NCBI RefSeq assembly: GCF_030734285.1
Contig: NZ_CP132294.1
Span: forward strand, 1,550,001 to 1,614,000
Direction: 5' to 3'
From: Natronococcus sp. AD-5
GTDB lineage: Archaea > Halobacteriota > Halobacteria > Halobacteriales > Natrialbaceae
Length of the DNA: 64,000 nucleotides
The stretch's first letter is position 1. Each line of letters starts with the position of its first letter. Positions 28,885-42,072 of this stretch are shown piece after piece. Both the position numbers and the translations under genes were made by a program. The notes under the pieces are model-generated. The model was not told where the DNA came from. It did no database searches and saw only the letters and a program-made list of their open reading frames with translations.

Positions 28885-29967
28885 CTATGGCTTCGCTTCG
28901 AAGACCAGACTGGTCGGCGTCTCTGCCGCGCGGCGAAAGCGCGTAAATCCGCCCTCGGCGACGACTCCGCGAGTCCGCTCCTCACCCGCTTGTGCGCCGA
29001 GACCGTAGCCGACATCCTGACTGAGCGAATTCGGCGTACAGGCCACCGTCGAGATCGAGTACGCGAGACGGCCAAACGGGGTGAGGTTATCTTCGACCCG
29101 GTCCTCGGCATAGGGTTCGACGATCATCCACGCGCCGTCGTCGGTGAGCGTCTCCCGGACGTGGGCCGCCACACCGACAGGATCACCCATGTCGTGGAAG
29201 CAGTTGAACATCGTTACGAGGTCGTAGTCGGTTCCGTCGTACTCCCTCGCGGTCGCCACCTCGAAGTCGACGCGGTCTGCGACGCCCGCCGTGTCCGCCC
29301 GCTCGCGTGCCACCTCAATCGATGCCTCGTGGTAGTCGATCCCGACGACCGTCGAGTTGGGGTACGCTTCGGCCATGCGGATCGTCGGTGCGCCGTGTCC
29401 ACAGCCCACGTCGACGATCCGCCCGCCCGCTTTCAGACTCGCATCGACTCCGTCGAGCGCCGCGATCCAGTCCAGGAGATACGCCCCGTATGACGGCCCG
29501 AAGAAGCGTTCGGTGCCGTGAAACATGTCCCCGTCGTGTTCGTGCCAGCCGATTCCCTCGCCGGTTCGAAACGCTTCGCGGAGTTCGGGTTCGATCTTGC
29601 TCGCCGACGCGACCAGCTGGAACGCGCCCGGCATGAACACCGGGCTTTCCTCGTTGGCCAACACGTAGGCCTGCTCCGGGGAGAGATCGTAGCGGTCGGT
29701 CTCGGGATCGTAGGTCACGTACCCGCCGGCGGCCTGCGAGCGCAGCCACTCTCGGACGTAGCGCTCCGCGGTGTCCGTTTGCTCGGCCACCTCGGCGGAC
29801 GTGAGCGGCCCGGCGTCGTCCAGTGCCGCGTAGAGACCGAGTTCGTCGCCGACGACGGCCAGCGCGGCGTGGACCGTCGCGCCGAGATCGACGAGCGACG
29901 TTTCCACGAGTTCGTTCAGTTTCTCTTCGTCGATCGGGTCCGCTTCCGCTCGGGTTTCTGTTGTCAT
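28885..29967 (-). CDS. SAM-dependent methyltransferase with N-terminal winged helix
   Basis: A 360-residue protein of the Rv2258c-like type. N-terminal wHTH/dimerisation domain (about 15-110: ALAVVGDELGLYAALDDAGPL, SAEVAEQTDTAERYVREWL) is typical of small-molecule methyltransferases rather than a regulator. The Rossmann core has motif I IVDVGCGHGAPTIRMAEAYP (near 185), VVGIDYHEASIEVARERA and TMFNCFHDMG. The extended C-terminus includes a CTPNSLSQ stretch. Its start lies 16 nt after the DUF1059 gene stop on the same strand, so both are likely co-transcribed. Substrate unknown. Confidence 0.9.
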   Translation of the reverse strand: MTTETRAEADPIDEEKLNELVETSLVDLGATVHAALAVVGDELGLYAALDDAGPLTSAEVAEQTDTAERYVREWLRSQAAGGYVTYDPETDRYDLSPEQAYVLANEESPVFMPGAFQLVASASKIEPELREAFRTGEGIGWHEHDGDMFHGTERFFGPSYGAYLLDWIAALDGVDASLKAGGRIVDVGCGHGAPTIRMAEAYPNSTVVGIDYHEASIEVARERADTAGVADRVDFEVATAREYDGTDYDLVTMFNCFHDMGDPVGVAAHVRETLTDDGAWMIVEPYAEDRVEDNLTPFGRLAYSISTVACTPNSLSQDVGYGLGAQAGEERTRGVVAEGGFTRFRRAAETPTSLVFEAKP

Positions 29968-29983
29968 GGGGTCGTCTCCGTTG

Positions 29984-30157
29984 CTATACGATTTTCAGGT
30001 GTTCACTCCGGAGTTCCTCAGCCGTGTAGTCTCTCCCGTGAACGTCGCTCATGTGGGTTTTTGCCAATTCGATCGCTTCCTCTTCGTTTTCCGATTGAAC
30101 GATGAACCGGCAATCGGCTGCTGCCGCTTCACAATCCAGCCTGTGGGCTTGTGCCAC
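29984..30157 (-). CDS. DUF1059 small metal-binding protein, copy 1
   Basis: A 57-residue protein, predicted from a GTG start at 30157 with a strong Shine-Dalgarno-like GGAGGTG 9 nt upstream (30167-30173). This start gives the same length as its paralogue at 41899. Conserved Cys9, Cys16, His35 and His40 form a C-x6-C-x18-H-x4-H pattern. A longer form from an upstream ATG at 30184 is possible but adds poorly conserved residues. It is upstream gene of the DUF1059-methyltransferase pair. Confidence 0.82.
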   Translation of the reverse strand: MAQAHRLDCEAAAADCRFIVQSENEEEAIELAKTHMSDVHGRDYTAEELRSEHLKIV

Positions 30158-30390
30158 TTCTCTGTACACCTCCAGATATACCATCGGCTGCAATCGAAAT
30201 AAGCGTAATTAGAACGATATTTCTATTGGATTCTCGATCGAACGTAGTTTCTAAAAAACACTTGATAGAAGGCAGTTTCCCGAACTACCTCGTAACAGCC
30301 GATACCACTCCTAAAGAGCGATACTTCGGCCGACAATGATTTGAGTTAACATGTGGCAAGCCCTTTGGCCGAGCTCGTTGTTTCTTCCGT

Positions 30391-31362
30391 ATGGACCCGC
30401 CGATCACGAACGAAACGATACGGACGAACCCGCCCGCCGGAAACGAGGCGTTCCAACTCCTCTCTGACGAAACCCGCCTTGCAATACTGCAAGCTCTCTG
30501 GGAGGCGTACGATCCAGCAGACGATACGCCGATGCCGTTTTCCGATCTCCGCGCGTCCGTCGACGTTGACGATCCCGGTCGCCTCAACTACCACTTAAAC
30601 AAGCTCTCGACCCACTTCGTCCGTCGGAAAGAGGACGGATACGAGCTCAGGGACGCGGGAAAGCGGATCGTCAGAATGCTGCTTTCGGGCACCGCGATCG
30701 ATGACCCAGAGATTGACCCGGTAGAGGTGGATTTCTCGTGTTGGTACTGCGGGGGCCAACCGGAATGGAGCTACCGGGAAGGATGGCGCATTTTGGAATG
30801 CACCAGCTGCGACGCTCGGTGCGTCGATACCTTCCCGCCCGGCGTCATCAGCAAAAACGAGTTCCCACCATCAGGGTTACGAGACCGAACCCCGAACGAA
30901 ATCAACGACGCGGATCGGATTTGGGGCGCCCATCGACGAGCATCCGTGATGGATGGTGTGTGTCCGGAATGTGCGGGTGAGATGCCTGTCACCGCGATCG
31001 AAATCTGTGATGACCACCGCCCGGATTGGGACGAGTTCCAGTTCTGTGAGGCCTGTGGATCGATCTTCTGGATGCTCGTCTCGCACGTCTGTGAGGGGTG
31101 TAAATATCGATGGCGGATGCCGACGTTGTTCTACCCGACGAGACTGCCGGCGGTGGTCGCGTTCTACTACGAGCATGGCATCGAGTTCGATCTCGCCACG
31201 TACGAACAGCGCACCTTCCTCCTCGACTACCACCAGGAACTCCTCTCGGAGGACCCGCTTCGCATCCGCATCTCGATCCCGTTGGAGGACGAAGCGCTGC
31301 GGCTCATATACGATGAACGAATGGAGGTGGTGGATGTGAATCGGCGAGGGAGAACGCGCTGA
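30391..31362 (+). CDS. ArsR-like regulator with multiple zinc ribbons
   Basis: A 323-residue protein: N-terminal ArsR-type wHTH (about 18-100: AFQLLSDETRLAILQALW, FSDLRASVDVDDPGRLNYHLNKL), followed by a cysteine-rich region: CWYCGGQP, CTSCDARC, CPECAGEM, CEACGSIF and CEGCKYRW. These five pairs can form two or more zinc ribbons. The C-terminal alpha/beta segment runs AVVAFYYEHGIEFDLATYEQ. This architecture recurs in haloarchaeal regulators. It is divergent from the DUF1059-methyltransferase unit (233 nt), so it may regulate it. Confidence 0.82.
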   Translation: MDPPITNETIRTNPPAGNEAFQLLSDETRLAILQALWEAYDPADDTPMPFSDLRASVDVDDPGRLNYHLNKLSTHFVRRKEDGYELRDAGKRIVRMLLSGTAIDDPEIDPVEVDFSCWYCGGQPEWSYREGWRILECTSCDARCVDTFPPGVISKNEFPPSGLRDRTPNEINDADRIWGAHRRASVMDGVCPECAGEMPVTAIEICDDHRPDWDEFQFCEACGSIFWMLVSHVCEGCKYRWRMPTLFYPTRLPAVVAFYYEHGIEFDLATYEQRTFLLDYHQELLSEDPLRIRISIPLEDEALRLIYDERMEVVDVNRRGRTR

Positions 31363-41898: not shown

Positions 41899-42072
41899 AT
41901 GACAGACGCACACAAGCTCGACTGTGAGGCGGCGGAGGCCGACTGCCGGTTCATCGTCCAGTCGGAGAACGAAAAAGAAGCGCTCGAACTGGCCAGAAAC
42001 CACATGCAGGACGTTCACGGGCAAGATTTCTCGGACGACGAACTCCGGGAAGAGTACCTGCAAGTCGTGTAA
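41899..42072 (+). CDS. DUF1059 small metal-binding protein, copy 2
   Basis: A 57-residue paralogue of the protein at 29984, sharing the same length and most positions (AHKLDCEAAEADCRFIVQSE versus AHRLDCEAAAADCRFIVQSE). The Cys9/Cys16/His35/His40 quartet is conserved. Here the ATG and stop are unambiguous. The gene stands alone, with an AT-poor upstream and a degraded frame on the other strand downstream. Confidence 0.86.
   Translation: MTDAHKLDCEAAEADCRFIVQSENEKEALELARNHMQDVHGQDFSDDELREEYLQVV

Follow-up and report, generated by a model that had tools for sequence, protein, structure and literature searches.

The stretch of DNA analysed here (the window) comprises 64,000 nucleotides (nt) of contig NZ_CP132294.1 of the haloarchaeon Natronococcus sp. 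AD-5, whose genome is 5.17 Mb in 2 contigs. It contains three adjacent genes, a DUF7347-DUF7351 regulator, a DUF1059 gene and an S-adenosylmethionine (SAM)-dependent methyltransferase gene, which form a discrete cassette of about 2.5 kb. Judged by sequence, there is a strong case that the trio is a real and conserved unit under shared control of a predicted operator, which consists of two inverted repeats next to the promoter of the DUF1059-methyltransferase operon. What is new is the predicted operator and the way in which the regulator matches it. The three genes and other features are listed in Table 1. The reading frames given in the initial annotation were confirmed, as was the 16-nt gap between the DUF1059 and methyltransferase genes. 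The divergent orientation of the regulator, on the plus strand and facing away from two genes on the minus strand, was likewise found and is kept in all eight loci with the trio.

Table 1. Features of the cassette, with positions in the window
Feature	Position	Strand	Basis or remark
Rv2258c/TnmJ-type SAM-dependent methyltransferase, 360 amino acids	28885-29967	-	Reading frame, Pfam, search for structural relatives
DUF1059 small protein, 57 amino acids, GTG start at 30157	29984-30157	-	C-x6-C-x18-H-x4-H; 16 nt upstream of the methyltransferase
Shine-Dalgarno-like GGAGGTG of the DUF1059 gene	30167-30173	-	Read in the sequence
TATA-like element CTTATTT	30197-30203	-	Separated by 6 nt from the proximal operator, on its downstream side; 18 of 21 loci have NTTA there
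Proximal operator (predicted), perfect inverted repeat TAGAA-N6-TTCTA	30210-30225		No other exact copy in the 5.17-Mb genome
Distal operator (predicted), TAGAAACTACGTTCGA on the minus strand	30238-30253		28 bp from the proximal operator
DUF7347-DUF7351 regulator (winged helix-turn-helix and zinc ribbons), 323 amino acids, helix DPGRLNYHL	30391-31362	+	Divergent; Pfam

The predicted operator

The conserved palindromic pair falls in the intergenic region 30158-30390, just upstream of the promoter of the DUF1059-methyltransferase operon, and the operator is present in all eight trio loci. The second box is found 28 bp further out in these loci and is in most of them looser than the proximal one. 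The proximal repeat was matched in none of 100 shuffles. In nine other genomes the exact repeat occurs 0-3 times each, with 0-1 control matches; some copies lie elsewhere, probably by chance. Upstream of the regulators 28 box matches were found, distributed over 15 of 15 regions with at least two matches in 12 of them, while the box count in 1000 shuffles had a mean of 0.034 and a maximum of 2. The spacing between neighbouring boxes was exactly 28 bp in 13 of 13 cases. No box was found in the 700 nt upstream of any of 18 methyltransferase loci that are without the regulator, a control set from which clade B methyltransferase loci, L123 and L124 were excluded.

The DUF1059 and methyltransferase genes could on their own constitute the unit, with the regulator as an incidental neighbour, since the pair is found without a DUF7347-DUF7351 regulator at seven loci (L063, L065, L107, L112, L114, L118 and L120). 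The distribution of the operator over loci with and without the regulator, and the covariation of recognition helix and operator described below, make this very improbable. Control of the DUF1059-methyltransferase operon by the regulator through the predicted operators is instead well supported by the sequences. The constant distance of the NTTA sequence from the proximal box suggests an action on basal factors, and this fixed distance would slightly favour activation by recruitment over simple blocking.

Genome-wide distribution of the operator and the recognition helix

The tandem pattern was found in 14 of 392 haloarchaeal genomes, at 16 distinct sites, and the reversed control of the pattern had no match in the same genomes. 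Ten of the sites were previously in the motif set and six were new and had not been used to derive the motif. A regulator homologue lies within 1.5 kb of 15 of the 16 sites. At the last site, in G147, a homologue with 32% identity is the next gene behind the peptidase-like gene that the boxes precede. This locus (L257, 3032-6044 of the 358,865-base contig G147:C3) consists of the tandem boxes, the peptidase-like gene and the homologue, which is of the DPG type, with an adjoining ParA-like gene; the gene names were read from the translations. The Natronococcus genome itself has two tandem sites, one in the cassette and one at a SnoaL-linked paralogue of the regulator. One internal TAA was flagged in this paralogue, which was not called broken because the TAA may be merely the end of the gene.

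Among the homologues whose DNA was examined, boxes were present with all 21 that have a DPG recognition helix and with none of the 22 that lack it. Six of the 21 DPG loci were found through the motif (L231, L233, L234, L235, L236 and L257), and the unbiased count is 15 of 15 versus 0 of 22. The sequence of the recognition helix tracks the repeat, DPG-R-L-N and DPG-Q-F-N going with TAGAA and DPG-Q-I/V-H with TTGAA. The helices DPGRLNYHL and DPGQFNYHL were accompanied by TAGAA proximal boxes at 11 of 11 loci and DPGQ(I/V)HYHL by TTGAA boxes at 8 of 8; the two DPGQCHYHV loci had mixed boxes.

Homologues of the regulator at E <= 1e-15 numbered 10, 14 and 11 in three of the four genomes searched and 2 in the fourth. 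Out of these 37, 11 loci of the non-DPG type were checked for boxes; L245 repeats L236, and L257 was added separately. Seven homologues away from the cassette methyltransferase (57-69% identity, one being the paralogue in the same genome) are all divergent from a SnoaL-type gene, an assignment confirmed by Pfam for two of the seven genes. Six of the seven have TTGAA-type boxes and L148 has a TAGAA box. Two new targets were found. In L236 a regulator with 76% identity adjoins a methyltransferase of another kind, which has no DUF1059, and in L231 (by Pfam) and L233 (similar by eye) a regulator with about 30% identity lies next to a DUF5694 gene. DUF7347/DUF7351 homologues are numerous in some haloarchaea, and the literature search gave no paper naming either domain. 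The predicted operator, the promoter geometry and the helix correlation together make the DPG subgroup directly testable, and would allow its targets to be predicted from DNA alone.

Conservation and spread of the cassette

Conservation of the trio was checked across haloarchaea and extends beyond close relatives, to eight loci with unrelated flanks in four families (Natrialbaceae, Haladaptataceae, Haloferacaceae and Natronomonadaceae). The loci are the window, L060 on a plasmid of Haladaptatus salinisoli, L064 (Halegenticoccus soli), L068 (Halogranum amylolyticum), L069 (Halorarius litoreus), L105, L109 and L116. Five of the eight are within the 392-genome search (G000, G237, G152, G321 and G296) and the other three came only from the named set. 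The methyltransferase search at E <= 1e-120 gave matches in 40 of the 392 genomes; loci with at least 79% identity were designated clade A. Four loci that had been obtained twice (L106, L110, L111 and L115, identical to L060, L065, L062 and L066) were counted once. Gene order and orientation are the same in all trio loci, and the gap of 10-16 nt between the DUF1059 and methyltransferase genes suggests that the two are co-transcribed.

Loci without the regulator are of several kinds. A FilR1-type regulator takes the place of the DUF7347-DUF7351 protein in seven clade A loci and in two loci at 72-76% identity, some of them with OsmC and an ArsM-like enzyme. Regulators of this FilR1/HVO_A0261 type are placed in the same way next to sister methyltransferases but belong to a different protein family, and boxes were found in none of seven FilR1 loci tested over 700 nt upstream. 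None of the queried regulators was matched near the methyltransferase in L108, L113 and L119. In L107 and L110 a gene resembling flavin adenine dinucleotide-binding monooxygenases is found upstream of the DUF1059-methyltransferase pair (PF01494 in L107, similarity of the translation in L110).

On the methyltransferase tree the presence of the trio required three changes, a number as low as this being obtained in 0 of 500 shuffles. The window and the Haladaptatus plasmid copy were paired with moderate support (89/86). In BLASTN comparisons of the 13-kb neighbourhood in the window with 13 loci, similarity to the seven other trio loci covered the regulator, DUF1059 and methyltransferase genes (in two pieces in three of the seven) and in no case more than about 110 bp beyond them. 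For the six loci without the regulator only the DUF1059 and methyltransferase genes were similar, together with at most about 70 bp in front. Because similarity is confined to the trio genes and about 110 bp, the trio is best described as a discrete cassette that appears to move between lineages, and the case for a horizontally exchanged, self-contained unit of regulator and enzyme is strong.

The regulator and its cysteines

Both Pfam domains of the regulator scored well above their cut-offs (DUF7347 104.7 bits, cut-off 27.6; DUF7351 124.7 bits, cut-off 31.2). In the predicted structure, residues 12-102 form a winged helix-turn-helix (HTH) fold similar to CzrA, SmtB, YodB and NadR (Z 10-11). 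The model of the DUF7351 half was weak (mean predicted local distance difference test score, pLDDT, 60.9 from 7 sequences) and only residues 12-102 were well matched; no claim is therefore made on the sensory fold. The regulator shares the winged-HTH fold and the divergent position from its target with one-component regulators of the ArsR/SmtB and MarR/HxlR groups. It differs from them in having a DUF7351 half, in scoring below the metalloregulator cut-off and in its tandem 28-bp operator by a TATA-like element. The initial description of a cysteine-rich, ArsR-like protein thus holds for the cysteines, with five CxxC pairs present, and not for the family, as the protein is a DUF7347-DUF7351 regulator rather than a classical ArsR metal sensor.

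The candidate zinc ligands are the five CxxC pairs together with C206 and H209, 12 in all. Eight of them (C117, C120, C137, C140, C191, C194, C234 and C237) are invariant among the 33 homologues situated away from the cassette methyltransferase, 24 of which retain all 12. The remaining nine have lost some or all of the set C206, H209, C219 and C222; they include L231, L233 and L257, all with operators. Since the eight ligands are invariant beside other genes, most of the ligands look structural, the first eight as parts of zinc ribbons; the variable set might still have a sensing role.

The unit had initially been proposed to be metal- or redox-responsive. The regulator would then sense metal or oxidation through its cysteines, the DUF1059 protein would carry metal and the enzyme would methylate in response. 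The richness in cysteines, the sensing-site-like variation of the C206, H209, C219 and C222 set, the intact DUF1059 quartet in all trio loci and the OsmC family genes adjoining sister methyltransferase loci agree with such a response. It is nevertheless disfavoured, and we regard it as quite unlikely: the eight ligands do not vary, the variable set is incomplete in three regulators that have operators, and the HTH half is free of cysteine, the first being residue 117. The NCBIfam model HTH_metalloreg gave 19.3 bits, below the cut-off of 55, and switches of this kind are also found in front of SnoaL, DUF5694 and peptidase-like genes. The further proposal that all three proteins contain a potential metal site applies to two of them, no candidate site in the methyltransferase being seen here or named in the initial annotation.

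The methyltransferase

The N-terminus of the methyltransferase matches the Rv2258c-like winged HTH domain PF21320 (59.8 bits, cut-off 24.1) and is accompanied by the SAM-methyltransferase domain PF13847 (71.1 bits, cut-off 27). The closest solved relatives by sequence are TnmJ (E 4e-50) and Rv2258c (E 5e-39). In Natrinema gelatinilyticum (L063, 7818-9080) DUF1059 and methyltransferase are one in-frame protein, with TGG at the position of the DUF1059 stop. The predicted structure of this fusion (mean pLDDT 88.5) had TnmJ and Rv2258c as the best Foldseek matches, with TM-scores by target length of 0.85-0.90. The SAM motif VDVGCGHG and the HD motif align with both proteins, the glycine motif of TnmJ itself being partly different. 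The histidine of the HD motif is catalytic in O-methyltransferases. From the fold, and from the retained His-Asp motif, there is a moderate to weak indication that the enzyme acts at oxygen. Thus the enzyme resembles Rv2258c and TnmJ (Protein Data Bank (PDB) entries 5f8c and 8g5s) in sequence, fold (seen in the L063 relative), winged-HTH domain and both motifs, and differs in being haloarchaeal, with a DUF1059 partner and a regulator of its own. Passages of PMC9464397 assign TnmJ to an enediyne pathway. In passages of two further papers Rv2258c has a single mention each, in the reference list of a fatty-acid methyltransferase paper (PMC5426589) and as a structural homologue in the RedM paper (PMC10784701); neither was used to assign a substrate.

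Relatives outside haloarchaea (44-62% identity) are found near regulators of other kinds, as read from the translations, and the enzyme may therefore be usable as a single inducible activity. The C-terminal end of one such regulator (L086) was compared with LuxR-type response-regulator models, and all matches were below cut-off. A SnoaL-like identity of the 131-amino-acid gene upstream of the L081 methyltransferase was a guess that neither Pfam nor NCBIfam confirmed, and it was dropped.

The methyltransferase and DUF1059 genes could also be an offshoot of the haloarchaeal operon with FilR1-type regulator, DUF1059, OsmC and ArsM-like genes, serving in methylation of arsenic, selenium or tellurium or in detoxification under thiol stress. 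A DUF1059 gene is found 12-14 nt upstream of an ArsM-like methyltransferase in L183 and L187, and OsmC accompanies cassette-type methyltransferases in L061, L062, L066, L067 and L121, joined in L062 and L066 by an ArsM-like gene. In L081 (Solirubrobacterales) the neighbour is an arsenite methyltransferase above the NCBIfam cut-off. Such an origin is considered unlikely, as the cassette enzyme is of a different family (Rv2258c/TnmJ), the haloarchaeal ArsM-like protein is itself below the arsenite methyltransferase cut-off (220 versus 263 bits), and neither OsmC nor an ArsM-like gene was found in the stretches searched at the eight trio loci. The best score of the cassette enzyme with an ArsM-type NCBIfam model, among the 25 of 69 families listed, was 24.5 bits with a cut-off of 240.

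The ArsM-like survey covered 30 loci of 39 matches. A FilR-type regulator was found in 22 of the 30, OsmC in 19 and DUF1059 in 9, two of the latter at 33-37% identity and one convergent. The order DUF1059, OsmC, ArsM-like methyltransferase and small membrane protein is recurrent in haloarchaea (L199, L202, L203, L204 and L209); four of the five loci have a FilR1-type regulator upstream, and L204 has a cassette-type methyltransferase. This operon has the same DUF1059 subtype upstream of a methyltransferase gene, but its methyltransferase and regulator families are unrelated to those of the cassette.

Proposed working of the cassette

The reading that we favour, with some reservation, is that of a mobile cassette in which a regulator acting on two operators switches the DUF1059-methyltransferase operon in response to an organic signal, with methylation as detoxification or tailoring. 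The DUF7347-DUF7351 protein, probably as dimers, would bind the two 16-bp inverted repeats, which lie 28 bp apart and abut the TATA region of the operon, and the bound regulator would switch the operon. The methyltransferase would then methylate, probably at oxygen, the signal compound or its product, and the DUF1059 protein would be co-expressed as an accessory. A small organic compound is the most likely signal, although the indication is moderate to weak: because the same kind of switch precedes SnoaL, other methyltransferase, DUF5694 and peptidase-like genes elsewhere, an organic molecule is favoured over a metal.

Several points weigh against this reading. Substrate and signal are guesses from neighbouring genes, and the OsmC and ArsM-like neighbours in sister loci make a metalloid or thiol role possible. 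A single exact repeat is unspecific: G240, G142 and G056 each have one copy that is not at the methyltransferase, and additional exact repeats are present in G237 (2) and G321 (1), with 0-1 control matches per genome. Two regulator sites known beforehand (G152 and G092) escape the strict tandem pattern because one box is degenerate in each. A spacing of 28 bp does not correspond to an integral number of helical turns, and the proximal upstream region of the regulator's own promoter is without a conserved box. Some methyltransferase loci have no regulator close by (L108 and L113), and L070 has only a 32% homologue, located downstream. The second tandem site, at the paralogue, makes cross-talk within the genome possible. 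The small sample behind the DUF1059 comparison below is to be added to these points.

The DUF1059 protein

The DUF1059 protein matches PF06348 (28.1 bits, cut-off 21.1), and the initially reported C-x6-C-x18-H-x4-H pattern was recovered. The GTG codon listed in Table 1 is the best reading of the start, because relatives start at the same place and the Shine-Dalgarno-like sequence precedes it. The first 20 residues were modelled with a pLDDT of about 53 in the L063 fusion. A PDB sequence search gave one weak match (E 0.17), and the literature search listed two papers with a single mention of DUF1059 each and no relevant account.

The candidate metal quartet is intact in all trio loci. At loci without the regulator, ligands are lost in L065 (both cysteines), L112 and L120, and the quartet is intact in L063, L107, L114 and L118. 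The ratio of nonsynonymous to synonymous substitution rates (dN/dS) of DUF1059 was 0.082 with the regulator (27 of 28 pairs usable) versus 0.239 without it (21 pairs), a contrast drawn from 8 versus 7 related sequences and equalled or exceeded in 92 of 6435 label splits. For the methyltransferase the values were 0.102 and 0.106, respectively. DUF1059 thus seems to be constrained in the presence of the regulator and relaxed in its absence. The selection pattern, from few sequences, hints at a co-expressed accessory whose putative Cys/His site is important mainly together with the regulator.

A bolder proposal, at present unlikely though conceivable, is that DUF1059 is the partner of the regulator, as a putative metal-site tuner, and not of the enzyme. 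The switch would then be a plug-in module, with a helix-to-operator code that can be read from sequence, and haloarchaea would connect it to various small-molecule enzymes. Such a partnership would account for a quartet and sequence that are kept with the switch and tend to decay, by lost ligands or loss of frame, where the methyltransferase lacks it.

In a survey of DUF1059 loci, 16 of 30 matched a pattern requiring the quartet (one of them, L181, in the wrong frame) and 14 did not. The quartet is also found in copies far from the cassette methyltransferase, the search pattern itself having demanded it, and 5 of 9 loci of the same subtype are in an OsmC/ArsM-like setting. The cassette links DUF1059 to two unrelated methyltransferase families, the cassette type and the ArsM-like type.

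Another DUF1059 gene of this subtype is present in the window (41899-42072, plus strand) and encodes 57 amino acids with an intact quartet; the methyltransferase, OsmC, ArsM-like and FilR queries were unmatched within 1.5 kb of it. In L119 (G082:C3) DUF1059 is found only as an out-of-frame remnant before the methyltransferase, and the genes upstream resemble transporters of sulfur compounds (TauE/YeeE-like, from the translations).

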